From positions 25,486,001-25,550,000 of the forward strand of contig CM069872.1 of assembly GCA_036172665.1 (NCBI GenBank): 64,000 nucleotides of DNA, in the 5' to 3' direction. This stretch comes from Prosopocoilus inquinatus. Taxonomy: Eukaryota > Arthropoda > Insecta > Coleoptera > Lucanidae. The notes below the pieces were generated by a model. It was not told where the DNA came from, searched no databases, and was given only the letters and a program-made list of their open reading frames with translations. Of this stretch, positions 3,607 to 59,666 are shown one piece after another (position 1 is the stretch's first letter; the number at the start of each line of letters is the position of its first letter). The translations under genes were made by a program, and so were the position numbers.

Positions 3607-3613
3607 TAGAAAT

Positions 3614-4272
3614 TAGGGATGTTCCGAAGCTTCGGTTCTGCTTCGGTATTCGGCCGCTTCGGCTGCATTTCAAATATTCGGCATTCAGCCGAAGCTCTAG
3701 TCTGCTTCGGCCGAAGCACCAATGCAGGAAAATTCTTGTTTGAACGTGATACTTTTTGCCAGTCGTGTAGGTACATCAATCATCTTAGTTATTCATTGAA
3801 CACCATTTGTATTGTAATCAACATGAGTGGTAAGAAAAGCCACATTTGGAAATTTTATGATATATGTGACGATAAAAAATTCGCTAAGTGTAAACTATGT
3901 GATCTGCAAATATCTCGTGGTGGGATTGGACGAAAAGCCTCTACTACTTCTCTTATGAATCACGATAAACGTTGTCATAGTGATAATTATCAAAGTTTTC
4001 AAAAGGAGAGGGAATTATCAAGTACAAATACGTGTAAAAATAGTGAAAAAAATATGTCGTCTATGAGTCAATTGCATCAACAAACATTGGATGACATTAT
4101 GGAAAAATCTACAAAATGGGATATAAACGACAAGCGTAGTAAATCATTACATTTTACTATTGCAGAAATGATTACATTAGACAATATGCCAATATCTAAG
4201 CTTCGACTTGCGGAATAGCCGAATATTCGGTATTCGGTTATCCGGCCAAAACCCCGCTTCGGCGCATCCCTA
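3614..4272 (+). mobile_element. hAT transposon, internally deleted
   Basis: Perfect 8-bp target duplication TTAGAAAT at 3606-3613 and 4273-4280 encloses termini beginning TAGGGATG and ending CATCCCTA, the hAT signature. The subterminal regions are rich in GCTTCGG/CCGAAGC and TATTCGG motifs. The 659-bp body keeps only the N-terminal BED zinc finger region of the transposase (3823-4218); the DDE/RNase-H-like and dimerisation domains are absent, so it could only be moved in trans. Confidence 0.9.
3823..4218 (+). CDS. BED-type zinc finger fragment of hAT transposase
   Basis: The frame opens at the internal ATG 3823 and runs 131 codons to a stop at 4216-4218. It has the BED finger arrangement: an aromatic start (IWKFYD), CKLC near residue 24, and an H-x4-C-H end (NHDKRCH), with S/T-L-MNH between as in ZBED and hAT transposases. 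After the finger comes a polar linker and the start of the post-BED region (FTIAEMITLDNMPISKL resembles hAT sequence). The stop falls in the terminal repeat region, so the protein is truncated before the catalytic domain. An upstream ATG at 3619 lies in the TIR and is unlikely to be used. The frame is undamaged, so a DNA-binding-only product is possible but not shown. Confidence 0.7.
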   Translation: MSGKKSHIWKFYDICDDKKFAKCKLCDLQISRGGIGRKASTTSLMNHDKRCHSDNYQSFQKERELSSTNTCKNSEKNMSSMSQLHQQTLDDIMEKSTKWDINDKRSKSLHFTIAEMITLDNMPISKLRLAE

Positions 4273-18109: not shown

Positions 18110-19371
18110 TTATACGAGAAAATCATCGACGGAGTAACAGCACTTCTGGAACAAAATTAGTTTCAACTCTCGTTTGAAAGTGCTGATTTTAGGTGCATTT
18201 TTAACATGCTCCGGGAGGGCGTTAAAAAATTTACATCCATTAAAGAAAACACCTTTTTGATATAAAGCAGTAGAGTGAGAGAAGGGTCTAAGATTTGATT
18301 TAAACCTAGTGTGATAGGTATGATTATCGTTATTTGGTGTGAAAAACTCCGAATATTTATAAACAAAACAGCACAACTCAAAAATATAGATAGAAGGTAC
18401 TGTTAAAATGCGATGGGTTTTAAATGCTTCCTTACAGGAATCACGCCGTTTAAGGCCAGCAATTATACGTATTGCGTATTTTTGTATAGTAAAAACCCTG
18501 CTACAATCACCGCTTAATCCCCAGTGAATAAAACCAAATCTCAAGTGACTATGAAAATTAGCAAAATATAAAGTACGTAACGTTGTATAATTACAGTGCT
18601 GAGAAACAAGTCTTAATGCAAAGCACGAACTGTTTAGTTTAGAGCAGAGTGAGCTTATGTGGGGAGACCATTGCAGATGAGAGTCTAAAGTCAACCCTAG
18701 TAGTTTATTATTACTAACGATTGGAATGTCCGTCCCCTGTAAATTTACTAAATTGACATCAAAATTAGATCTAATATTTCTAAATAGGATCACTGACGTT
18801 TTATCGCGATTAATAGACAATTTGTTCTTGAGCATCCACACTTCAATGATATCATAGATCATTTTGGCAGATTTTTCGACATCTATAAAGTTATCACGCG
18901 ATATCAATACATTTGTATCATCGGCATAACAAACTAAGGTACAATCACTATTTCGCAGAAAAAACCGAGATCATTAATAAATGTAATAAATAAGGTTAGT
19001 CCCAAGATAGACCCCTGCGGTACACCAAATACAATATCAGCAGGTTTCGAATGATTATTATTAATTACTACTATCTGCGTTCTGCCTGTTAAATAAGAGG
19101 AAAGAAGATTTAGGGTGTTTCCCCTGATGCCGTAGCGTCTTAGTTTTTCTAGTAAGAGCTTGTGATTAACACAGTCAAATGCCTTAGAAAGATCTATGAA
19201 AAGACCAAGTGCAGAATTCTTTTGATCTATGGCGCTAACAATTTCGTCGATAAATTGAAATAATGCGGAATCTATATCTTTATTTTTTGTAAAGCCATGC
19301 TGGAAGGGAAGAAAAGTCTCATTTGCTTTCAAGAAGTTAATTAATCTGTTATTTAAAATATATTCAAACAA
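18110..19371 (-). pseudogene. LINE reverse transcriptase and C-terminal region
   Basis: RT landmarks are FLPFQHGFTKNKDID, LFIDLSKAFDCVNHKLL, the VPQGSILG block and, just before the frameshift near 18920, an intact YADDT. The C-terminal 265-codon frame includes NKLSINRDKT, LGLTLDSHLQW and TYHTRFKSNLRP, typical of the Jockey/I superfamily of insect LINEs. The enzyme copies element RNA at a nicked target in intact relatives; this copy is frameshifted at least twice. Confidence 0.85.
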
Positions 19372-22965: not shown

Positions 22966-23916
22966 TTATGACTTAGTCTGGAAGAAAACCCTGACTTTTC
23001 TTTTGATACCTCGCATCATTGTCTCTGCATTTTTATTAGACACCTTTCCACTTGCAGCATTCCACATTCGATTAAAATTTTTCTCATCCATCTTCTTCAG
23101 TTTGCGTTTAGCATTGCCCAATATCTTTCAATTGGACGTAATTCTGGACAATTTGGAGAATTGACAATTTTAGGTACAACTGTCACGTTATTGTTTGAAT
23201 ACCATTCCAGAGTAGTTTTAGTATAATGGATAGTAGCTAAATCAGGCCAAAATATTAGAGACTTTGTGTTTTCGGATGAGTGGTAAAACATTTTTCTAAA
23301 TACTTTTTTTATGTACAATTCTTGATTCATTGTACCGGAAGTACAAAATGTCTCGGTTTTCAGGCCGCAAGAGCAAATTGCCTACGATATAAGAAATTTC
23401 ATCGCAAATTTGTCAAACTTTCTTTTTTTAAATTTATCATTAACATCGCCTCGTCGATATACAACATAAAACTGTTGACTTGGTAATTGTTTGAAATCGG
23501 CCTTTCCATGTTTCATCGTCCATTAAAATACAGCCACTTTTCGTCAAAAAAATTTCGTATAATTTACGTGCACGCGTTTTTGAAAACTACTCTTTTGTGG
23601 AATCTCGATTCGGAACTGTAGATACTCTGTAGGTTCGCAATCCTTTATTCTTTTTAATTTTCTGTACGTATGATTTTGATACACCACATTTGCTTGCAAC
23701 ATCACGGATCGAAAGAATTGGATTTTTCTTAAAAAGCTGCGTTACCCTTTTTGCCTTTGATTTATCCACTGGACCCGATTTTCTTCCAGAACCCTTTTTT
23801 CTTTCGATAGACAACGTTAATTTATTACCATTAATTAATTATTTATTTATTACCGGCACCTTTTGAACAGTTGATTTTGCAACTCCTAAAGATTTCGCTA
23901 ACTTTGACTGAGACAT
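22966..23916 (-). pseudogene. Tc1/mariner-like transposase, frameshifted
   Basis: From an ATG at 23916: a first HTH (SKLAKSLGVAKSTVQK), a GRKSGPVDKSKAKRV linker, a second HTH (LSIRDVASKCGVSKSYVQKI), then DDE motifs: MDDETWK (first Asp), FWPDLATIHY (second Asp) and RPIERYW (Glu). I count 37 residues between the second Asp and Glu, i.e. DD37E-like spacing. Frameshifts lie at about 23830, 23590, 23500 and 23400. The last readable codons end near 22970. Inverted termini were not confidently identified. Confidence 0.8.
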
Positions 23917-24418
23917 ATTTCTATTTTGGTTGCACTATGCCCGCCAAAACATCCGGGACAACTCTCTGAATGCATTTTTGAGTTATTTCGTTAGTTTGAA
24001 TGCAATTTTAAGGCATTCACCTTGCTTATAACTGACGCATTATTGCTAACTTCGTTATTATTGGAGCTACGAAGTCTTCAAATGAGCTAAAATGAAGTGT
24101 TTTTACTCAGGATTACATGGTGACATCAAAAAAACAATTGCGCATCGCATTCTCAAAATATTTGCATATGTAAAGTTTTCTGTAATGGAACATTCTATAT
24201 TCTTTATTGGCACATAGAAGAACACCAAATTCTAAATACAAATCATCTTTTACTACTTTTCATTTAAACGAATAATAAAGGAGTTATTGCGATATTTACA
24301 TTCATCATTTACAAAAAATTTCTATTAAAAATTTGCTACAGATAGGCCAAATTGCAATAGGGTACTCATAGCGATTTCGGTCCTGATTGATCACCAGCAG
24401 AAGAGCAATTCGAGAATT

Positions 24419-24446
24419 CTGAGTGTAGTCTGAGTGGCGCGGTACA
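24419..24446 (-). repeat. 3' LTR stub
   Basis: On the minus strand, TGTACCGCGCCACTCAGACT matches the 5' LTR start TGTGGCGCGCCACTCAGACT and then diverges after about 28 bp. The purine run AGCAGGGGGCAG directly upstream is the expected plus-strand primer (PPT) position. Confidence 0.65.
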
Positions 24447-24503
24447 CTGCCCCCTGCTTAAAAACGTTTCGTCTCGAAATGTTCCTGGTGAAAGTCTTGA
24501 AGG

Positions 24504-24566
24504 AGGATGTCGGAATCTACATGCTGGCCCATTCTTGCAACATCCCATCTGGAAGAAGTCCACGGT
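24504..24566 (-). pseudogene. CCCH-like zinc finger after macrodomain
   Basis: In the same frame as the macrodomain C-terminus, FFQMGCCKNGPACRFRHP fits the later part of a CCCH finger (C-x5-C-x3-H followed by Pro). The first cysteine, expected seven or eight residues before, is replaced (VDFF), so this copy would not bind zinc normally. CCCH fingers typically bind RNA; here the role would be speculative. Confidence 0.5.
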
Positions 24567-24587
24567 TTTGTTGTTGCTGACTGTTGC

Positions 24588-25011
24588 CTGTGGGTGGTGG
24601 CTGCAGACTAGGACTTCAATTCCCGTTCTGTGGAAGATGACTTCCAGCATGCTTCGAATTACTCTCCAGTCTAGTCCGTCCAATCCGCAGCCCAATTTGG
24701 GGATGGCTAACTTCATCTGGTGGGTTCTCTATTAGCTGTCCCCTCAGGCTATAGAGGGCTCTCCACATACTTTGATAATCAGGTTTACCGCTTGATGTCT
24801 TCTTAGTGACTAAATAATGCGCGTGGCGCCTCCGATCTGCCGTCGAATCGATGATCTGCAGACTCTTGCCTACCACGGGATGCTGTCTTCGGAGCTTCTC
24901 GATTTGGCCAAATTTCTTATTAAACACCTGAGCAATTCCTTTGGACATTTTCAGGTCTTCTTCTACGCAGTGGGCCAGACTGTACTCCAGTGGCACTTTA
25001 AAGAGATGTTC
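24588..25011 (-). pseudogene. TARG1/OARD1-type macrodomain, one frameshift
   Basis: Two adjacent frames together cover a whole macrodomain. The first part (25011-24714) has PLEYSLAHCVEEDLKMSKGI, VFNKKFG, PVVGKSL and HYLVTKKTSSGKP; the second (24716-24588) has LAIPKLGCGLDGLDW and TGIEVLVC. This matches the OARD1/TARG1 class of ADP-ribosyl hydrolases: the Lys of the TKK strand and the Asp of GCGLD, the catalytic pair known in TARG1, are both present. A single-base frameshift at about 24716-24725 separates them. It follows the integrase C-terminal module in frame (through the open segment from 25257), with no stop between, so it belonged to pol. In cells TARG1 removes ADP-ribose from glutamate, aspartate or O-acetyl groups and from nucleic acid ends; a role in countering host ADP-ribosylation is inference. 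Confidence 0.8.
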
Positions 25012-25257
25012 TTGCTTCTCCGTGGTCACTCCAAACCGTGCCTTACTTCCTTCGGCGTGGTGAGACATGAAGGTTTCGAAGATCACTTCGGAAACTTGCC
25101 CCCTTTGTACTGTCCCTTCATCTGCTTCTCCATGGTAAGGGGCTATCCGGTTGAAGTGGATTACTTTGGGTTTGCCATGGGAGACCTTCTTGATGCGGTA
25201 AACGACGTCGTTGATCCGTTTCATCACTTTGTAAGGACCTTCCCAAGAGGTCTGCAA
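25012..25257 (-). pseudogene. Integrase C-terminal module and linker to macrodomain
   Basis: Starts with TSWEGPYKVMKRINDVVYRI, the GPY/F module found at the C-terminus of many gypsy integrases, followed by HGKPKVIHFNRIAPYHG, a common end of insect gypsy pol. About 40 residues of linker lead into the macrodomain without a stop. It is one frame away from the RNase H-integrase segment upstream. Confidence 0.75.
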
Positions 25258-25296
25258 TTTTGGGGAGAGGCCTCGACGTCTTTGGGGGTTATAAAG

Positions 25297-26907
25297 TCAG
25301 ACCAGTGCTCCAGGTTGGTATCCTCCGTGTTGAGCGTTGATGTCATAGTGCTGCTTCATCCGATCGCTGGCCGTCTGTATATTGTGACGCACTTGGTTGT
25401 GGATATCATCCATTTTCCTGCGTAATTTGCTCACGTAATTTTCGTCGGCAGAGACTTCGCCAGGCTTCACACCAAACTTCAGGTCGCAGGGCAGTCTCGG
25501 CTCTCGCCCGAATACCACTTTCGCGGGAGTCTCCCCTGTTGTCTCATGAACAGATGAGCGGTATGCCATTAGAAACAGGGGAATGTACGTGTCACTGTCC
25601 CTCTGATGATCGGAAACGACCTTGGACAAATGTCGGTTAATGGTTCTGTTGAACGTTTCCACCATTCCGTCCGACTGTGGGTGGAGTGCAGTTGTTCTAG
25701 TTTTTCGTACGCCGAACAGAGTACACACGTTCTTGAACAAGGCCGATTCAAAGTTCCTTCCTTGGTCTGAATGCAGTTCCATAGGTGCACCATACTGACG
25801 GATCCATTCCCTGACAAGGACTTCCGCAATAGTGACTGCCTCTTGGTTAGGTAGGGCGTAAGCTTCAACCCACTTGCTAAAGTAGTCCATTAATACGACG
25901 ATGTACTTGTTTCCACCATTCGTTTCTGGAAACGGGCCGGCTACATCGATGGCAACTCTCTCAAAAGAACTTCCAACGTTGTACTGTCTCATGGGGGCCT
26001 TACCCCGCCTGTGGGGACCGTTACTGGCTGCGCAGACTGCACACTTCCTGCACCAATCCTTCACGTCTTCCTTGCAGTTCACCCAGTAAAATCTTTCGCG
26101 CACCTTCTCCATAGTCTTCTTAACTCCCAGATGCCCTCCCGAAGTTCCATCGTGAAGTTCCCTCAGAACTTCTGGCACCCTATTCTTGGGGATTAGTAAT
26201 TGTGTCTTCTGTTCCATGCCTTCCTGATTCTCTATGCTTCGTCTCAGAAGACCACGATCCAACACTATGGAGTCCCACTGCGCCCAGTATGATTTTACGG
26301 ACGGTGCACATGGTGCTACCTCTTCCCAGGTAGGCCTCGCGTCCCTGCTTTTCCACTTTAGCACTAATTTCAAATCTGGGTCGTTCTCTTGGTCTGTTCG
26401 CAGTTCTTCGCCTTGCCATTTGTCGTCAACAATGGCTGTCCTCGCAGTCGTGGCTACTTTCTCGTCCAAACGACTACAGTGCTTACAGTCTTCGGCACAG
26501 GGTCTTCTCGACAAAGCATCGGCATTTCGATGGCTAGTTCCTGTCCGATGCTGAATTTCAAAATCGTACTCCTGAAGTCGTTCGATCCATCGTGCAACTT
26601 GCCCTTCTGGGTTCTTGAAACGGAGAAGCCATCTTAGAGCGGCATGGTCGGTCCTCAGGAGGAAGCGTCTACCATACAAGTACTTGTAGAAATGTTCTAT
26701 CGTTTTTACGACGGCTAGCAATTCCCTTCTTGTGACGCAATAGTTTCGTTCCGGCTTTGATAGGACTTTACTGAAGTAGCCGATCACCCTCTCTTGCCCC
26801 TCTTGTATCTGGGAGAGTACGCCACCAATCCCAACGTTGCTAGCATCTGTGTCCACGACGAATTTGCCTTCCGGGAGAGGATAACTCAGAATAAGAGTAC
26901 TAATCAA
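25297..26907 (-). CDS. Gypsy RNase H and integrase
   Basis: Open for 536 codons. RNase H: FVVDTDASNVGIGGVLSQ, RELLAVVKTIEHF, LRTDHAALRWL and DALSRRP. Integrase zinc-binding HHCC: HDGTSGGH and CRKCAVC. Catalytic D,D,E: VAIDVAGPFP, HSDQGRNFES and GMVETFNR, all intact. The enzyme degrades the RNA strand and inserts cDNA. The segment is in a different frame from the RT upstream and from the GPY/F segment downstream, so it is part of a broken pol even though its own domains look undamaged. Confidence 0.9.
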   Translation of the reverse strand: MISTLILSYPLPEGKFVVDTDASNVGIGGVLSQIQEGQERVIGYFSKVLSKPERNYCVTRRELLAVVKTIEHFYKYLYGRRFLLRTDHAALRWLLRFKNPEGQVARWIERLQEYDFEIQHRTGTSHRNADALSRRPCAEDCKHCSRLDEKVATTARTAIVDDKWQGEELRTDQENDPDLKLVLKWKSRDARPTWEEVAPCAPSVKSYWAQWDSIVLDRGLLRRSIENQEGMEQKTQLLIPKNRVPEVLRELHDGTSGGHLGVKKTMEKVRERFYWVNCKEDVKDWCRKCAVCAASNGPHRRGKAPMRQYNVGSSFERVAIDVAGPFPETNGGNKYIVVLMDYFSKWVEAYALPNQEAVTIAEVLVREWIRQYGAPMELHSDQGRNFESALFKNVCTLFGVRKTRTTALHPQSDGMVETFNRTINRHLSKVVSDHQRDSDTYIPLFLMAYRSSVHETTGETPAKVVFGREPRLPCDLKFGVKPGEVSADENYVSKLRRKMDDIHNQVRHNIQTASDRMKQHYDINAQHGGYQPGALV

Positions 26908-26915
26908 ATACTGCT

Positions 26916-27911
26916 TTAGTTGTTCAAAACTAGTTTGACACTGTTGGTCCCACTTGGTCGTTCAAATCGACGACCTTCTTCAGTGAGTTTTGTCAACGAC
27001 TTAGCAATGTCTGCAAATCCAGGAACGTAGCGCCGATAGTAAGTGCACAGGCCAAGGAAACTCCTTATTTGGTGTTTATTTCTGGGAGTTGGCCAGTCTT
27101 TCACCACCTGAATCTTCACAGGGTCCACGGCGATTCCATTTCCATTAACAATGTGCCCCAGGTAATTCACTTCCTTCTGGAACAGGTGACACTTCTTGAG
27201 GCTAAGCTTTATTCCAACTCCGCGAAGCCGGAGGAACACTCCTTCCAGGTTCCTCAGGTGGTCGTCGAACGTCTTTCCCAAGACAATTATGCCGTCAAGG
27301 TACACCATGCACGTTATCCAGGACAGACTTTTCAGAACCGTCTCCATTAACCTCTCGAATGTCGCTGGGGCATTACATAACCCGAATGGCATCACTGTGA
27401 ACTGCCACAGACCCATACCAATGGAAAGCGCCGTCTTTTCTCGATCTTCAGGCGCCAGTTCCACTTGCCAATATCCACTCTTTAAGTCCAAAGTTGAGAA
27501 GATCTTTGAGTCGGCCAAGGTGTCCAGGGTATCATCAATCCGTGGCAGGGGATAGCTGTCCTTCTTGGTGACATTGTTGAGTAACCGGTAGTCTACACAG
27601 AACCTGGTGAACCCATCCTTCTTCTTAGCAAGCACTACTGGTGAGGCCCACGGGCTGCTTGATGGTTCTATTACATTACCCTCTTCCATCTCGCGAATAA
27701 TGCGTTCTGCTTCCTCACGCTTCGCCAACGGTAGTCGCCTTGGAGCTTGACGGATAGGTCTTTCTTCTCCAGTCTCTATTTTGTATTTCACGACATCAGT
27801 TCTTCCCTTGGATCCATTTTCTACCTCGAATACATCTTGATAGCGGCCGATCAGATTCTTTGCTTTTGTCTTCTGGTCTGGAATCAATTCCTGGACTGTT
27901 GACATAACCAT
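26916..27911 (-). pseudogene. Gypsy reverse transcriptase, active site mutated
   Basis: Contains VIEPSSSPWASPVVLAKKKDG, FCVDYRLLN, FSTLDLKSGYWQVELAPED, the FTVMPFGLCNAPATFERLM block, and NYLGHIV then SFLGLCTYYRRY of the connection. The catalytic box reads YLDG (27290-27301) instead of YLDD: the second of the paired aspartates has become glycine. The RT would be inactive even without the frameshifts at its ends (about 26920 and 27911). Confidence 0.85.
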
Positions 27912-28071
27912 TTCCTATAATTTCGTTGGGACTTTTGCTTCTGGCACGTTTGCTTCAAGGTGGCGGGAGATGGAGGACACCATGGTGCAGCTTCCCAAGA
28001 TGGTTCCTTTCTTGATATTGACGGAGAAAATTTGACGTTCATCAGGCGGACAGGTACTTCCTCCTTCGCCG

Positions 28072-28799
28072 TTAACAACATTTTTCCAACGGGACTCCTC
28101 TTCCAATCCTTTGATCATCAGTATTAGGTTCAACCATAATGACTTGCCCATCTTGAGAAACACCGTTCAGTTTTGCGTCGACTATAACCTCAGTTCTGCT
28201 GGATAATACAACGTCTTCAGCGAGGACTACTCGAGCGGCCACGTCGCCTCGTTGATGTAGAACCAACTCCTCATTATTGACCGCCATCACGCCACGCTTT
28301 AAGTCCAATTGGAACCCGTGGGCACAAATGACGTCCATGCCCAAAATTGCCTCGTCCTCTATGTCTGCCACCAGTGCACGGTGTTTTATTGGAGTTGAAC
28401 CAATGGTGATGATAACCTCTACTTCACCGTGGACAGTTGCTGATGTTCCAGTTGCAGTTTTCAGTCTCCACTTGGTCGGCTCGGTGCATCCAGATGACTT
28501 AATGACGTCGGGTCTTAGGATGGTCTCGTCGCACCCGTATCCAATAACATGGTGTGAGGAATGTCATCAATGGTAACATCCACGAAGACACTGCTGGTCA
28601 ACTGCCGTAGGGATATTACTTGTTTGGATTTCGTCTTTGGGGGCCTTTGAATACGGGTCGACGTTTGCCCCTCTGCACCGATCCGGCTTAGTTTAACTGT
28701 GGCTTCCTTGGATCCTGTCTGGGCTTTGGACATCGCCTGCGAACATGTTCTTCCTCCTGGCCACACTAGCGGCTTCTTCTGCTTGAAGACCTGTTCCAT
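28072..28799 (-). pseudogene. Gypsy aspartic protease
   Basis: VFVDVTIDDIPHTMLLDTGA has the D-T-G-A active site (about 28520-28600), and the second frame carries AILGMDVICAHG, the conserved ILG strand of retropepsins. A frameshift at about 28510 separates the halves, and another follows at about 28100 before RT. Cleaves Gag-Pol in intact elements. Upstream at 28740-28800 a C..EEEHVRRRC remnant suggests a decayed zinc knuckle. Confidence 0.8.
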
Positions 28800-28838
28800 A
28801 ATGCGGCGAACATCCTCGGCGGTGGCATATTCCCTGGG

Positions 28839-29774
28839 TCACTCCTTTATAGCAGATCCCATCTTGGAGTTAGCGGATTCTTCCTCTTCTTCCTCTTGGA
28901 AGTCCATGGCCGCTCGCACCTTGACATGCCCTCTTGAAACTCGTCTCGCCGCTTCAAATTCCAAGGCATAAGCCAATGCGTCCTTGGACGTCTTCGGATG
29001 GGTCATTCTCAATGCCTGCTGGTTGTCTGGGTCACGGATTCCATCTATGAAGGTCTGCACCGTCAAACATTTGAGGAATTCAACAGGAGCTGTGGGATGT
29101 GCCAATTGGGCTAGACGCGCTACGTCCGCTTCGAATTCCTGAAGACTTTCTCCGGATTTCTGACAGCGATTCCTCAACTGCGCATGGTATACCTCGGTCA
29201 GATGGGCCTGTCCGTAACGCATTTCCGTCCTATTCACCAGCTTGTCAAAGTATTCTCGCTCCTCTGGCGGCATCGTCTGTAGCACATCGATAGTGTCCCC
29301 TCTCAACGCCACAATTAACGAAGTGGCTTTTTCGCTGGCCGTCCATCTGTTCGCCTTTGCTGCTGCTTCGAATTGTTTGAAGTAGTTGGGCCAAGAAGAC
29401 TCCATCGAACGTTGGTGGTTTTATTTTCAATTTCGAATTTTCTGCTGGTCCTTCCACAATTCGGGTTTCATTATTTTCTAGTGTTTCTACTGGTGGCTGA
29501 TCCCCGAACACACGCAACCTCGCCATGATTTGTTCCAGATTTTTGATTTTGTAATCCTGCTGGATATTATTTCCTCCACATTTCCTTGCAGGTTTCTTGT
29601 TTCTTCCGATATTTTTACCACTAGTTTATCATCGAGTCCTTTCGTTTGTTCTAGAAATTCACCCTTAAAATTTTCGGACTGTTCTAGAAGTTTCTTGTCG
29701 AAATTTCTGGATTGCTCTCGAAATTTCTCGTCTAAGTCTCTAGATTGTTCCAACAACACTTTTCTCGTAGCCAT
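28839..29774 (-). pseudogene. Gypsy Gag
   Basis: The N-terminus (29774-29490) shows four 11-residue coiled-coil repeats of the form LEQSxxFxxKF. Then comes PPTFDG and the retrotransposon gag fold (SSWPNYFKQFEAAAKANRW, SLIVALRG, YHAQLRNRCQKSGESLQEF). An acidic EEEEEE tract precedes the protease region. Frameshifts at about 29500 and 29400 break it. Structural protein that packages element RNA. Confidence 0.75.
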
Positions 29775-29871
29775 TGTTTTTTCCCGATACTGTACTTATT
29801 TAATAATCTGATTAAATTTAATTTACTTTAAATTGTTTATTTATTTGCACAAACACGCACACCGACACCAC

Positions 29872-30204
29872 TGTTACGTTTCTAGGGTTTAAATCAATTT
29901 ATTTAATCGAATAAAACACTCGGTAAAAACTTAACCGTAATTTAATAATGCTTACAATCTAATTTATTTGTAACAATTTATTTACACACTAAATCTAACT
30001 TCGATGATCGCTATTTAGAATTCGACTGACTCCTGAGGCTACCCCGGCCGATTTTATATTCTACGCTGTCTTCTCGTTTGTTCCAACGCTGGAAAAGTGG
30101 AGTTTGTTCGGTATAGGCCCCGGTGGCGTGGCGGCCGATGACGCATAATAACGAACCGACTTCTTGACGCCTTCAGTGTGACGTAGTCTGAGTGGCGCGC
30201 CACA
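29872..30204 (-). repeat. 5' LTR, 333 bp
   Basis: Plus-strand ends TGTTACGTTTC and GCGCGCCACA, so on the element strand it starts TGTGGCGCGCC and ends GAAACGTAACA. It contains a TATA box (GAATATAAAATCGG on the minus strand, about 30050) and a poly(A) signal AATAAATTG near the downstream end. It would drive transcription leftwards into gag. Confidence 0.8.
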
Positions 30205-49381: not shown

Positions 49382-49886
49382 AACAGATAAAATACCGACA
49401 TCTTACTATCGCTTTTTGACCTGACATTGCAGTAGGATAGACAAATTGAAGCGGGATTTGCTCCTAATAAGTCCCCCATGCAAGGCGGCCATGCTTGCTG
49501 TCAAAGCATAATGAAAGTTTTTAGAAAAATTTTGTGCAAATCGTTTTTGATTGCAGTGAAAACCTCGAGCAGCCTCTGGACAGCTGTTTCAGCCCTGCTT
49601 GGGGCTTCTTCAGCAGAGACGTAGCTCGACATTCCCACTGCAGACCAAAAACGACTTGCCCAATTTATTCGCAATTGCGATGTACGAATGATGAACAGAT
49701 AAAATAGCGACATCTTACTATCGCTTTTTGACCTAACATTGCAGTAGGATAGACAAATTGAAGCGGGATTTGCTCCTAATAAGTCAAAAACGAATTGCAC
49801 AAAATTTGTCTAAAAGCTTTCATTATACTTTGACAGCAAGCATGGCCACCTTGCATGGGGGACTTATTAGGAGCAAATCCCGCTTC
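49382..49886 (-). repeat. Family-A retrozyme-like repeat, head-to-tail dimer
   Basis: A unit starting AACAGATAAAATA at 49382 starts again at 49694, giving a 312-bp period. The first unit is complete and has a hammerhead on its minus strand (49572-49620). The second runs only to about 49784 and is then followed by an inverted part (49785-49886, GCTTTCATTATACTTTGACA and onward). Partial copies are at 562-637, 21992, 32761, 34988 and 60394. No protein is encoded. Confidence 0.8.
49572..49620 (-). ncRNA. Hammerhead ribozyme motif, family A
   Basis: On the minus strand: stem I 5' strand GTCTCTG (49620-49614), CTGAAGA, stem II AGCCC/GGGCT with loop CAAGCA (5 bp including an A-U closing pair), GAAA, stem III from the palindrome ACAGCTGT, cleavable C (49579), then stem I 3' strand CAGAGGC, which pairs with all 7 bases of the 5' strand (one G-U). 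No extra bases in the core. This is the best of the motifs seen and fits a type I hammerhead completely. Confidence 0.8.
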
Positions 49887-52270
49887 AGGCCACAGAGGCG
49901 TACGTCATGGTGGGTCTGATGACGGTTTTGTAAAGCTTCATCTTGTTGTCAGGATGCAGCTTACTTCCCCGGCTCATCAGCCCGTAGAGGTTGGCTCTGG
50001 CGGCGACGGACTCAATGTGCTGTTTCCAGGTGAGTCGGGTGTCCAGGACGGCTCCCAGGTACTTCGCTTCTGTTCGCCAAGGAATGCCTCGTCCGAACAT
50101 GGCAATCTCTTCTGGTGGTCGCATCCGTCCCTTTCGTCCTAGAACGATGGCGGTGCTGTTCTCTGCGTTCACCTGGATTCGCCAGGTGCGGTACCAAACC
50201 TCGAGATCTTCCGCAGCGGTCTGCAGCTTCCTTCTCAGAATGGCGATGCTCTTGGACCGACAATACAGTGCTGTATCGTCGGCGTAGAGTGCGACGTTTA
50301 CACCGTTGTTTCGAGGAATGTCTCTCACGAAGATGTTAAATAGCGTCGGCGAGAGTACAGAGCCTTGCGGCACTCCCGCGCTCAGCGTTCTTTCCGAAGA
50401 TCGAACTCCGTTTATTTTTATACGGAACTTGCGTCTCTTCAAGAACGAGGCGGTCAGCTGGACAATACCCAAAGGTATTTCCGCCTCCAACATCTTGTGA
50501 AGCAGGCCCTGATGCCAGACTTTGTCGAATGCTTTCGACACGTCCTGCAAAACTAGGCCCGTGTATTCCTTTTTGTTAAAACCTTCGGTGACACACTCTG
50601 TGACGCGCAGGATTTGGTGGACTGTGGAGTGACCTGGACGGAAACCGAACTGTTCATCCTGGAGGACCTGGAGGCGCTCTAGGTGCCCCTTCAGTCTTCG
50701 GAGGATGACTTTCTCGGCCAGCTTTCCGAGAGCTGGCAGGAGGCTGATCGGTCGGTAGTTTTGAGGAAACGCCGCTTGCTGTCCGGGTTTTCTCAACATA
50801 ATGACATCCGCTCACTTCCACCGGGATGGAAAGTGACGCAGACGGAGCATCGCCTTGAGTATGCCGGTCAGAGCGGCGATCGCTCTCGCCGGAAGTTCCT
50901 GCAACGCCCTGTTGCCTATGCCGTCGGGACCTGGGGCCTTTCTCTTCTTGCACCACTTCGCTGCCTTCTTCACCTCCGAGGGCGATACCGGGGCGATGTG
51001 CTCGACATCTTCCTATTCTAGCGAGCGCCTGACTCTACGGTGAATGCGGCCGATGTGGTCCACATCTGCATTCTCGTAGACAGGGCTGCATTGACGCTCT
51101 AGATTGTCGGCAAAAGCCTCGGCCATTTCCTCGTCGGTGTAGACCACGCCTCTTTCTCCGTGTATAGGCGGCATGGGCGGTGCTCCTCTGTTCTTGAGAA
51201 TCCGAGTCATTCTCCAGAGAGAATTAACATCGGAGTTCAAGCCGTCGATTTTGGTGTCCCAGGTTTCCCTTTGGTGTTCGGTTAGGGCACGTCGAACTTC
51301 TCCGGTCAGCCTGTTCGCCTCTCTCTTGTGCTGGGGGTCCAGTGCCCGTTGCCACCGCCTCCTGGCGCGATTTCTGTCCCTGATGAGTTCACGGACGTCC
51401 TCGGGCAATCGCATTTGAAAAGGGCGGGCCGGCGTCGGATTCGTTGCGTGCGCAAGCGAAGCCGCGATGCTGTCGGTCAGTGTGCTTACGGCGTGTTCTA
51501 GTTCTTCACGCGTTTCGATCGGGGTTACTGGCCCTAGAGCTTCCTGCGGGTGGTCGGTGAACGCTCGATATCTTCTTTCTTGTGTTGTCCACGTCCTCGT
51601 CCTCTTCGGGGTCCCCTCCCAGCTGCAACAGAACAGGGGCGTGATCGGAATCGAGCTCGTTCAGAACAGAAAGCTGATGCACCGTCGCCACGTCCTTTAA
51701 GACGACAATGTCGAGGACATCGGGCCGGCCGACCGAACCGAAATGAGTCGGATCAACAGTGGCGTTGATCGTTATCATTCGGTCCTCGCCGTAGGCTATT
51801 AAAGTCCTTCCATTCCGATTAGTAACACGGCTGTTCCAATCGGGATGTTTGGAATTCAAATCGCCGGCGATTATCGCCGCGCCCTCCGTCTCGAACACCG
51901 CGTCCAAGTCCCCCGGGATCAGATCCCGATTTGGCGTGTTGTAAGCGGAGATCAGTCGAACCGTGCCGTCCGTCGTTTGTATCGCCACAATGGTCGCCTC
52001 CAAGTGCTGGAGGGGCGGCGTATCAATGACGTGGTGGTCGACGTCTCGTTTTACATAAACGGCAGTTCCTCCGCCTCTCGCGTTTGGCCTGTCGTTCCTG
52101 TAGAGCTGATAATTCGGAAGCCTGGGATCGTCCCCCGCTCTCAGATGTGTCTCGTTGATTAGAATTACGTCCAGGTTTTGACGCTGGGCCATCAACTCCA
52201 ATCGCTTGGGTTTGAGTCCATTGGCATTCCAAAAAACAGTCTGTAGAGAACGCGGTCGCCTTGACCGTCT
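49885..52270 (-). pseudogene. Jockey ORF2: endonuclease and reverse transcriptase
   Basis: Endonuclease: WNANGLKPKRLE, LINETHLR, LISAYNTPN, IAGDLNSKHPDWNS and SDHAPVLL, all catalytic motifs intact. RT: YRPISLLPALGKLAEK, LQDVSKAFDKVWH, GVPQGSVLSP and YADDTALY, then KYLGAVLDTRLTW. A frameshift at about 51545 and in-frame stops at about 50820 and 51013 inactivate it. The thumb/C-terminal domain is cut off after PTMTYASVA. The enzyme would nick and reverse transcribe at the target site. Confidence 0.9.
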
Positions 52271-53829
52271 ATCCCTGGTGGAACAGCGATGATATGTCGG
52301 AGGCGCAGCCTAACAAACCGCTATCATCTCGGTGCCGTTCGACGCCTGGCTGAGGCTGGCGATCACTTCGGCCGCGACGCTGAGAAGCTTCGAGAAGTCA
52401 ACCCACGAAAGTAAATCCGCGAGCTGCTGCCATACGCTGGCCGTCTCGGTTTCGGTCCGTGCGGGCGGGACGCGCTTGGCACTCTTCGGCGCCTGGACTG
52501 GGTCCTTGCTCGGTCCGGCCACGGCAGCGCTGTAGCTGACGCTCGGTCGCTTTCGCGCCTCCGAAGAGGGGGCAACGGTTGTAGCTGGCGCTGCCTGGCT
52601 CGTCGCTGGGGCGGGGTCCTTCGCTCCTTTCTTCACGGGCAGCTCCGGGAACTTGCCGCCCTTGAACTCCGGGGCAGGTTTCGGCTTCGGTATCTCCGGC
52701 TTCCTATCTCGGATCGGCGGTTGCGGGAACTTCTCACAGCCCTTGTAAGAAGCGGGATGCGGTCCGCCACAGTTGCAGCAAACAGCCGGGGTGTCCCGTG
52801 GCTTCTTGCACGCACGGGTGTGATGCGGCTCCGCGCACTTCACGCAGCGAGGACTGGCGCGGCACAATCTCTGAGAGTGTCCGAACTGTTGGCAGCGGTG
52901 ACACTGACCAACGCCGGACGGACGTCTCTTCGACTCGATTGTTACATCGAGCCGAGCGACCCTTTTCTCGTCGAATATGCGTTTGCCTTCGACGCCTCGC
53001 GATAACTGGACCATGACTAACGGTATAGCACGCTTTTCAGGTTTCTTGTTCAGCCGGGAAACCGACTAAATCGGGTAGCCCTGCTGTTCGAGGTCGGCCT
53101 TGATTTCGTCCTCGCTGATTTTGGAGGGCAGATTTCGGATCACGACCCGCAGCGGTTTATCAGCCGTAAGTGCGTACGTACGGTACTGCACTTTCTTCTC
53201 GTCGAACATTCACGTCATCGCGCGGTAGTCGTCCACCGTCGTCGGCTGGATGCGAATGTCGGTCCCCGTGTTCTTCGCTTTCGAGAAAGCGATCTTACGG
53301 ACATCAAGATCTCTACAGACCTGCGTCCACTTCTCTTTTTCCCTAAGGAAGACCGGGGGGATCCGGACCTTTCGCGGAGCTGACGGCTGGGACTCCGGCG
53401 TGGCGTCCTTGTCGTCGTCGGACAAGGTCTGATATCCATTCTTGGTGGAAGTGCGTCTCGGAAGCAGCAGCTGTTTTCCGCGGGCGGTCTTCCTCGGCTT
53501 CGGCTGCTGAAACTCCTCTTCGCTGCTGCTGACGTCGGTCCTTCGTTCGTCCTCGCTCTTCACAAGCTCCACTCAGGCGCGGGGGCGCTTGCCGGGGCCC
53601 TGGGCTGGGCGCTCGGACATCTCTGCGGAGAGAATTCCGGCCACGGACACCTTACTCAGTATGGTGGCGAAATAAAATAAAATCAAGCGTAACTTGGATT
53701 TTGTTGCCTTTTAAAAGGCTAGAGCTAGGAAACTAGCTATGAACGGCGCCTGAACAGGCCGGATCGCTTCGGAGAGAACTCTGCAAAACACGTCTGATCG
53801 CCTCGCACGCTCGCTGCAGAATGTGATCT
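49887..53829 (-). mobile_element. Jockey-clade LINE, 3'-truncated
   Basis: Minus-strand LINE with 5' end near 53829 (minus-strand CATTCTGCAGCGAGCGTGCG), ORF1 (53620-52310) and ORF2 (about 52270-49885). GC-rich compared with the rest of the window. The 3' end is lost where the family-A repeat abuts at 49886. It is inserted at the left edge of the 53830-54950 repeat. Confidence 0.85.
52310..53620 (-). pseudogene. Jockey ORF1 (Gag-like), three stop codons
   Basis: ATG at 53620-53618; 437 codons remain in a single frame to 52310, interrupted only by three stops (about 53573, 53210 and 53070) and no indels. The middle has an RNA-recognition-like segment (LRVVIRNLPSKISEDEIK); the C-terminal half has three CCHC knuckles: CHRCQQFGHSQRLC, CVKCAEPHHTRAC and CCNCGGPHPASYKGC, then a Pro/Ala-rich tail. 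Binds element RNA in intact relatives. Confidence 0.85.
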
Positions 53830-58230: not shown

Positions 58231-58356
58231 TAATGACAATTCTGTAACAGTGAATAAGAGAATCTTTTCTCAAAAAGCATACTCTAAATTCATTGGAACT
58301 ACTCTCAAAGGAATATTGGAACTCGGTTCTCTCAGAAACAGTCCCCAATACAAAAT

Positions 58357-59660
58357 ATGACATCTTCGAAATCGTCCAGACCTACTTCGAAGAGTCCTTC
58401 CCAAATAAAAATGTTTAAGAAAATAAACATACCTTCTTTAAAATGTCTCATGAACACTTACCACTTTATACATGAAGTTTATCAAAAATCACGTGATGAT
58501 GAAACCAAAAGTCTATTAAACAACTCCAAAAAGTTGTACCTGAAATATGCAGATGCAGAAAAGCAGAAGAAAAATCAAAGAGAAATCCAGGAAGCACATA
58601 ATAAACCAAAGAAAATCTGGATTATTATTAAAAAGGAATTAAGCCAACAAAGGACAAACTCGATGCAAGAAGGACAATCAAGCGAGGAACTAAATAGTTA
58701 CTTCTGTAACATCGGATCTGAAATTGTCAGGAACCTCCCAATGCCAAATGCTACACCCAGGAACGACACTATCAAGCAAATTTCACCCGAAAAAACATTG
58801 TATTTAACCCCTGTCACAAAAAATGAGGTAGGAAATAACATAAATGGACTTGACCCTTCGCTAAGCCCGGATGCCTGTGGACTGGATGTAAAGCTCATTA
58901 AGAGAGTTAGTAAATACATCTCTGAACCCCTAACGGACATCATTAATATTTGTATGATAGAAGGAGTCTTCCCACAAAAACTGAAAACTGCAAGAGTCAT
59001 ACCAATTTTAAAAAGGTACCCCTTTATCCCCCGGTAACTATAGGCCTATAGCAGTACTGCCTTTTTTCTCCAAGATATTCGAAGCTGTCCTCTCTAAGAG
59101 AACAACAATTTCTTGACAAAAACAAGTCCATTAGTGACCACCAATACGGTTTCCGAAGAAGTAAAAATACTACGGATGCTGCCACCTCGATAGTAAATTT
59201 TGTATACGATGCCCTAGAAAACAGAGAGATATGTGAGGCGATCCTTTGCGACCTGTCTAAAGCATTCGATTGTGTACAACACGACATACTACAACACAAA
59301 ATTTATCACCACGGCATTAGAGGCAACGCCTTCAAATTGATTAATTCGTACCTCACCGAAAGGGAACAACTGGTGGACTTCAGAGGAATAAAATCCCAAT
59401 TGAGCAAAAACAAATGTGGAGTAGCGCAAGGTTTATTACTGGGCCCGCTATTTTTCACTATTTTCATTAACGATCTCCCATCAAACATCTCTGGTCAATC
59501 CGTACTATATGCTGACGACACAACCCTGTTAGTAAGTAACCAAAATGTAGATACTTTAACACAAAAAGAAGAAGTGATTTTCACCGAAGCATCCAATTGG
59601 TTTTCCAACAACGGGTTACAGCTAAACAAAAATAAAACCGAAAAAATTCTCTTCACGAGC
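58357..59660 (+). pseudogene. LINE reverse transcriptase
   Basis: The 226-codon linker frame (58357-59037) ends LKTARVIPILKR just before RT. RT motifs follow in changing frames: NYRPIAVLPFFSKIFE, LSKAFDCVQHD-like sequence at 59255, VAQGLLLGPLFF (normally PQG) and intact YADDTTLL in the 59337-59666 frame. A premature stop ends it at 59664. Frameshifts lie at about 59035, 59110 and 59330. Confidence 0.8.
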
Positions 59661-59666
59661 GACTGA

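Follow-up and report, generated by a model that had tools for sequence, protein, structure and literature searches.

TARG1 (OARD1, C6orf130), an ALC1-like hydrolase, removes ADP-ribose from acidic residues and from the terminal phosphates of DNA and RNA by means of Lys84 and an acidic partner, as described in two sources (PMC7050489, PMC8053099). Here, we analyzed a 64,000-nt stretch of the genome of the beetle Prosopocoilus inquinatus (GCA_036172665.1, contig CM069872.1, positions 25,486,001 to 25,550,000; hereafter the window, numbered from its first letter), which holds a decayed copy of a Ty3/gypsy retrotransposon family, F1, whose gag-pol ends in a TARG1-class macrodomain and a CCCH zinc finger. 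Unlike TARG1 itself, the F1 domain is fused into a retrotransposon polyprotein, is accompanied by the additional CCCH finger and carries an M-S-K-G loop.

Among long terminal repeat (LTR) elements, some fish epsilon-like endogenous retroviruses (ERVs) carry CNPase or macro-domain open reading frames (ORFs) (Basta et al. 2009, cited by the review PMC4977317). They share with F1 the combination of an LTR element and a macro-domain protein; however, that review's description sets them apart as vertebrate retroviruses with additional ORFs, whereas the F1 pol is of Ty3/gypsy type by Pfam. LTR retrotransposons of bdelloid rotifers that encode DEDDy or GDSL ORFs, of which DEDDy was captured at least twice (PMC5408684), likewise carry a captured accessory enzyme, but as a separate ORF3 and with other enzymes, and neither 'macro' nor 'ADP-ribos' occurs in the main text of that paper. 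Other LTR elements, too, are known to have captured accessory enzymes (PMC4299795). An initial, sequence-only reading of the window had known of no standard description of such a gypsy lineage; in the full-text literature searched, most subscription journals and all preprints being outside its coverage, no description of a Ty3/gypsy macrodomain was found either, the fish ERV ORFs aside. To the accessory-enzyme captures already known in LTR elements, F1 adds that of a TARG1-class domain by a Ty3/gypsy element.

In chromoviruses an extra domain, the chromodomain, stands behind the integrase, as the macrodomain does in F1; no chromodomain was among the Pfam matches of the intact F1 copy L040 at E<=0.05, which sets F1 apart from that group. 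Macrodomains also serve as counter-defence enzymes in some RNA viruses. The RNA-virus polyproteins P0020 (residues 1342-1479), P0125 (2053-2190) and P0144 (756-897) contain TARG1-like macrodomains of the same class as the element domains (45-50% identity), although their carriers are RNA viruses. They occupy three separate branches of the macrodomain tree, which suggests repeated capture. VP8 of Kadipiro virus shares 41% identity with the F1 model, and virga-/negev-like viruses, some of them thrips-associated, match it at 20-28% identity, a likeness of fold only.

The macrodomain of the window copy

The window copy of F1 comprises the following parts:

29872..30204, minus strand: 5' LTR (TGTGGCG...GTAACA, 333 bp), 83-85% identical to the L040 LTRs (blastn)
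28839..29795, minus strand: gag region in several open pieces (open frames)
28072..28838, minus strand: protease region, broken frames (weak gag-asp_proteas matches, E 0.015-0.03)
26916..27914, minus strand: reverse transcriptase (RT) with YLDG motif (Pfam RVT_1, E 4e-33)
25297..26961, minus strand: RNase H, integrase zinc binding (H2C2) and integrase core (Pfam, E 4e-34, 2e-20 and 4e-12)
25138..25239, minus strand: integrase C-terminal p58/GPY-F module (PF22938, E 9.9e-12, residues 20-53 of the piece)
24724..25032, minus strand: macrodomain part 1, with the catalytic Lys equivalent at nt 24804 (TARG1 match, E 1e-18)
24591..24716, minus strand: macrodomain part 2, in another frame, with the catalytic Asp equivalent at nt 24680 (sequence)
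24507..24557, minus strand: CCCH zinc finger remnant, first Cys gone (zf-CCCH_4, E 0.001, below cut-off)
24447..24459, minus strand: polypurine tract AAGCAGGGGGCAG (read from the sequence)
24417..24446, minus strand: 3' LTR stump (TGTACCGCGCCACTCAGACTAC...), LTR start TGT at 24446, unrelated DNA beyond

As the sequence-only reading had described, one frame, 24616-25296(-), holds the integrase p58/GPY-F module (PF22938, E 1e-11) and continues into a macrodomain, here matched by human TARG1 (C6orf130/OARD1) with E 1e-18 over residues 90-212; the final third of the domain (MKLAIPKLGCGLDGLDW...) sits in another frame, 24366-24728(-). The two parts are continuous in copies L039 and L040. Also in agreement with that reading, the equivalents of both TARG1 catalytic residues, K84 and D125, are retained, and the polypurine tract and LTR start lie just downstream of the domain. 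We verified the TARG1 numbering by counting residues in the PDB chain, where position 125 is Asp; a review gives it as Glu. The tract has the same place and type in L039-L041, and in intact F1 copies it encodes the final residues ahead of the LTR.

The TARG1/OARD1 type, likewise proposed at the outset, was recovered with the window piece, with a seven-member profile (E 9e-54 against TARG1) and with the predicted F1 macrodomain structure, for which a structure search returned a TARG1/ALC1-like fold and placed DarG second in fold rank. Past residue 149 the model has low pLDDT, and the structure searches say nothing on the CCCH finger. A MacroD-type viral macrodomain, as in alphaviruses and coronaviruses, was considered and rejected, the closest solved relatives not being of MacroD type. 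A search with macrodomain profiles, in which a missing match would have overturned the initial claim, left it standing: the TARG1 comparison is strong, although Pfam Macro has no match at E<=1 on the window piece and one below cut-off in L040. Because Pfam Macro is weak for F1, TARG1 sequence, profile and fold were used as identity tests.

The window copy is colinear with L040 from 24435 to 29756 (95.9%, blastn), its gag region aligning to the front part of the L040 frame; the gag piece 28839-29420 has no Pfam match at E<=1, and the piece 29487-29795 has weak, unrelated matches only. The CCCH finger, which the sequence-only reading had not named, is degenerate here and intact in other F1 copies. 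Given the frame change inside the macrodomain, the other broken frames, YLDG instead of the YLDD of intact L040 and the 3' LTR stump, the copy must be regarded as dead. With ~22-30 bp of the 3' LTR left, no long direct repeat was found between the ends of the element, and the stump makes it impossible to age the copy by LTR comparison.

The family was characterized across the 650-Mb assembly that contains the window. A protein query made of integrase tail and macrodomain yielded 2198 first-look candidates; the best 150 were scored, and all of these were listed as matches. With the integrase core only, 4842 candidates were obtained, the best 150 of which scored at 98-100% identity, and 35 of these 150 have open frames of at least 1,850 aa (hand count). 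We read the sequence downstream of 20 F1 copies taken at roughly even steps through the 150 integrase-core matches. Since the scored matches are the best ones, this sample is silent on old, diverged copies. The macrodomain is present in 20/20 and stop-free in the fetched part in 19/20; it is visible in full in ten (in one from residue 12) and up to residue 115, where the fetched stretch ends, in the other ten. The CCCH finger is intact in 9/9 copies whose sequence extends that far.

L039 and L040 each have a single frame (1881 and 1867 aa) that ends past the CCCH finger, integrase and macrodomain thus sharing one frame in whole copies, and the 1901-aa frame of L041 enters the macrodomain and is cut short there. 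The LTR pairs of L039, L040 and L041 (TG...CA type, 327-339 bp as aligned) are 99.4, 100 and 100% identical and are flanked by 4-bp target duplications (TTAT, ATAC and GTAT, respectively), indicating recent, large-scale activity of F1. The Pfam matches of L040 are:

residues 484-568: protease (E 1e-9)
residues 803-963: RT
residues 1026-1154: RNase H
residues 1279-1336: H2C2
residues 1354-1447: integrase core
residues 1597-1630: p58_C
residues 1689-1789: Macro (15.9 bits, below cut-off)
residues 1820-1844: zf-CCCH (above cut-off)

The order protease-RT-RNase H-integrase is that of Ty3/gypsy elements. No gag domain or zinc knuckle was among the Pfam matches of L040 or L041 at E<=0.05; zf-CCHC occurs in gag frames of the sister families F2, F3 and F4, and some Aromia relatives carry PF03732. 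As a separate observation, the gag-pol frame of L041 opens with a SAP DNA-binding domain (residues 15-47; PF02037), which is also found in many Aromia relatives.

Taken together, the window holds a dead copy from a Ty3/gypsy family of very high copy number, in which gag-pol ends in a TARG1-class macrodomain and a CCCH finger. That the domain lies inside the element, as first claimed, is carried by its presence in all 20 copies chosen by their integrase and by the shared frame in intact copies with target duplications; we regard it as virtually certain that it belongs to the element. A chance neighbour or a single host fragment, named at the outset as the finding that would overturn the claim, is ruled out by the same 20 copies.

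Sister families, origin and selection

Macrodomains were also found in other families of this genome. In F2 the domain follows the integrase, and in F3 and F4 it lies between protease and RT with Pfam Macro above cut-off; all three are without the CCCH finger. The copies of F5 are older; Pfam shows a protease followed by a macrodomain in L023 and L026, and a macrodomain is present in L018 and L020. F6 has the order protease-macrodomain-RT with Pfam Macro below cut-off. In F1, F2 and their relatives, the macrodomain stands directly behind the integrase p58 module. Public proteins that combine a TARG1-class macrodomain with retroelement domains include those of the longhorn beetles Aromia and Molorchus, the sawfly Athalia, the ladybird Harmonia and the mealybug Planococcus. 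Among 27 elements with RT, the macrodomain precedes RT in 4, lies in the RNase H-integrase gap in 7 and follows the integrase in 16, a count that includes P0013, in which no integrase was detected.

On the best RT tree these position states need 7 changes, and the starred branches alone, with the states taken singly, force 4, 4 and 2; P0145 and P0012 are long branches on this tree. The macrodomain tree has 61 rows; in it F1 belongs to a single clade of 14 after-integrase elements (100/98), and the element P0127 pairs with human TARG1 (98/87); the element label needs 7 changes on the best tree and 2 are forced by starred branches, counts that cannot separate gain from loss. Several pol positions and separate branches make a single capture into Ty3/gypsy unlikely, and on these trees the TARG1-class domain probably entered such elements more than once.

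In the host's own TARG1 gene, a 57-bp intron splits the domain at a place where the element copies are uninterrupted, and the gene product shares 40% identity with F1 over 106 residues. Because of the missing intron and the low host identity, the F1 domain is best explained as an old capture via RNA rather than a recent copy. Compared with other insects, the host exon itself shows 58-64% identity to five named beetles, as against 49-53% for sawflies and a leafhopper, in line with a beetle host. No exact array of six TCAGG or TTAGG telomere units was found, a result that carries no information on the host.

We determined macrodomain dN/dS with codon bootstrap in ten comparisons. As the RT and the protease-to-RT parts of F3 and F4 differ in age, this measure was used in place of the macrodomain-versus-RT comparison first suggested. 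Values were 0.138 (0.05-0.23) between F3 and F4, 0.201 (0.12-0.35), 0.280 (0.15-0.50) and 0.199 (0.11-0.36) for F5 pairs, 0.298 (0.14-0.73) within F3 and 0.268 (0.09-0.94) within F4. The macrodomain is under purifying selection in the sister families F3-F5; the F1 pairs are saturated. Between F3 and F4, dN is 0.44 and 0.27 in the flanking linkers versus 0.19 in the macrodomain, indicating weaker constraint on the linkers. The searched part of the F1 tail is 43-58% (most 53-55%) identical to longhorn-beetle relatives. Against nine of eleven relatives, F1 is 50-62% identical in the macrodomain, 80-86% in RT and 73-83% in integrase, the remaining two, F2 and P0003, being more distant throughout. 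Faster evolution of the macrodomain than of the core enzymes would fit weaker constraint or an arms race.

Some further observations concern these families and proteins. In L009, L013 and L024, RT/RNase H of F3 and F4 is near-identical (97.9% and 97.8% aa), and macrodomain and linkers are diverged (68% and less), a comparison that we read as module exchange between the families; the F3 copies L009 and L013 differ past RNase H (52.5% aa). An element (P0004, 909-1006) and a Tenebrio protein (P0008, 691-756) have a second, weak macrodomain-like stretch after the catalytic one, as by eye does P0017. P0046, P0048 and P0126 fuse DNA ligase III-type domains (zf-PARP, ligase) to a TARG1-like macrodomain and form one clade (98/90), an arrangement that places an eraser within a PARP-linked repair ligase. 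P0006 and P0024, filed under Erysiphe pulchra (powdery mildew), group among insect-type elements, possibly reflecting insect DNA in the assembly. The genome's best Pfam Macro matches are two exon-like ones at G000:C2:52359025-52359543, with an NAAN...GGGG motif, which look MacroD-type and distinct from TARG1.

Proposed function of the macrodomain

The catalytic Lys and the acidic residue are kept in 152/152 macrodomain segments, the weaker second domains left out. Since both are kept, catalysis is the simplest reading, and the F1 macrodomain is most likely to work as an ADP-ribosylhydrolase; going by its sequence, we consider an active hydrolase quite likely. As a part of pol, it would enter the particle and the pre-integration complex, where it could strip host-added ADP-ribose from element proteins (Gag, RT, integrase) or from phosphate ends of element RNA and cDNA, with the CCCH finger perhaps tethering it to RNA. 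Countering ADP-ribosylation or cleaning nucleic-acid ends, both raised by the sequence-only reading, fits the retained residues. Several pol positions would be expected of a useful enzyme without need for integrase contact, and since the domain occurs ahead of RT or in the RNase H-integrase gap as well as behind integrase, targeting by integrase contact is less likely than an eraser that diffuses or travels in the particle. The same class in RNA viruses would point to a shared pressure, namely host ADP-ribosylation. That the domain acts against host ADP-ribosylation is close to evenly balanced, with at most a slight lean in favour, and for the chain as a whole, a particle-borne TARG1-class eraser, we judge the case slightly the better one.

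Several points weigh against this proposal. Pfam Macro gives 15.9 bits in intact L040 against a cut-off of 22, and there are damaged recent copies (L039 with GCRLD, L045 with GCRLD and a stop). Loop 1 reads M-S-K-G in F1 versus M-G-A-G in human TARG1, so that substrate or rate may differ. Three of the ten dN/dS comparisons, all between families and including both F1 pairs (with F2 and F3), are saturated, and L023-L026 gives 0.80 (0-1.8) from too few changes. The lower conservation of the macrodomain than of RT and integrase suggests moderate constraint. PARP catalytic-domain matches at four loci and one tRNA 2'-phosphotransferase were found in this genome as possible writers; the PARP loci are few, and we know of none that acts on elements.

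The domain might instead be a reader that binds ADP-ribosylated chromatin or PARylated breaks and steers integration as chromodomains do. Its place directly behind the integrase p58 module in F1, F2 and relatives would suit such a role, and macrodomains can be readers, TARG1 interacting with PARP1 and gathering at damage sites in a PAR-dependent manner (PMC7050489, PMC8053099). However, the domain lies between protease and RT in F3, F4 and F6 and in the RNase H-integrase gap in 7/27 elements, and readers need no hydrolytic Lys and Asp, yet all segments keep both; we regard this alternative as unlikely.

A little less likely still is that the main job is end repair, with ADP-ribose removed from RNA 5' or cDNA 3' phosphate ends that form in the normal cycle or through host repair enzymes, no dedicated defence being opposed. 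CCCH fingers are usually RNA-binding modules, and F1 has an extra one. TARG1 works on nucleic-acid terminal phosphates, DarG acts on DNA, and the tRNA 2'-phosphotransferase present in this genome is an enzyme able to ADP-ribosylate nucleic-acid ends. Against this, F2, F3, F4 and other elements lack the finger (51/148 proteins lack it, hosts and viruses included), and the present evidence does not separate protein from nucleic-acid substrates.

A metabolic role apart from element replication, such as the O-acetyl-ADP-ribose hydrolysis described for TARG1, is improbable, as an element has no reason to keep that activity, and the occurrence of the domain in elements and also in RNA viruses speaks for a part in replication or defence. 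A functionless host fragment hitchhiking in one successful family is the least probable of all: F1 is indeed one enormous family of near-identical copies, which alone cannot prove selection, but dN/dS of 0.14-0.30 in F3-F5, several pol positions, separate branches and conservation with longhorn-beetle relatives contradict it.

Extending the eraser proposal, we tentatively suggest, with less confidence than for F1 itself, that arthropods ADP-ribosylate proteins or nucleic acids of reverse-transcribing elements and RNA viruses, and that TARG1-type erasers are a common counter-defence, captured repeatedly and independently and placed wherever the polyprotein is free. To our knowledge, ADP-ribosylation has hardly been described as a barrier against retrotransposons; a hugely successful, recently active F1 with a catalytic-looking domain, sister families that keep the domain under purifying selection, its other positions in pol and the RNA-virus occurrence make this question directly testable, and the elements offer natural TARG1 variants for comparing substrate range.

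Other features of the window

Outside the F1 copy, the window contains:

49885-53065, minus strand: GC-rich non-LTR retrotransposon with RT (E 9e-40) and endonuclease (E 2e-17) frames
58288-59666, plus strand, and 18110-18970, minus strand: further RT fragments
3610-4218, plus strand: open frame with a BED zinc finger (E 1.7e-7)
23097-23838, minus strand: two frames resembling Tc1/mariner-type transposase, by eye only
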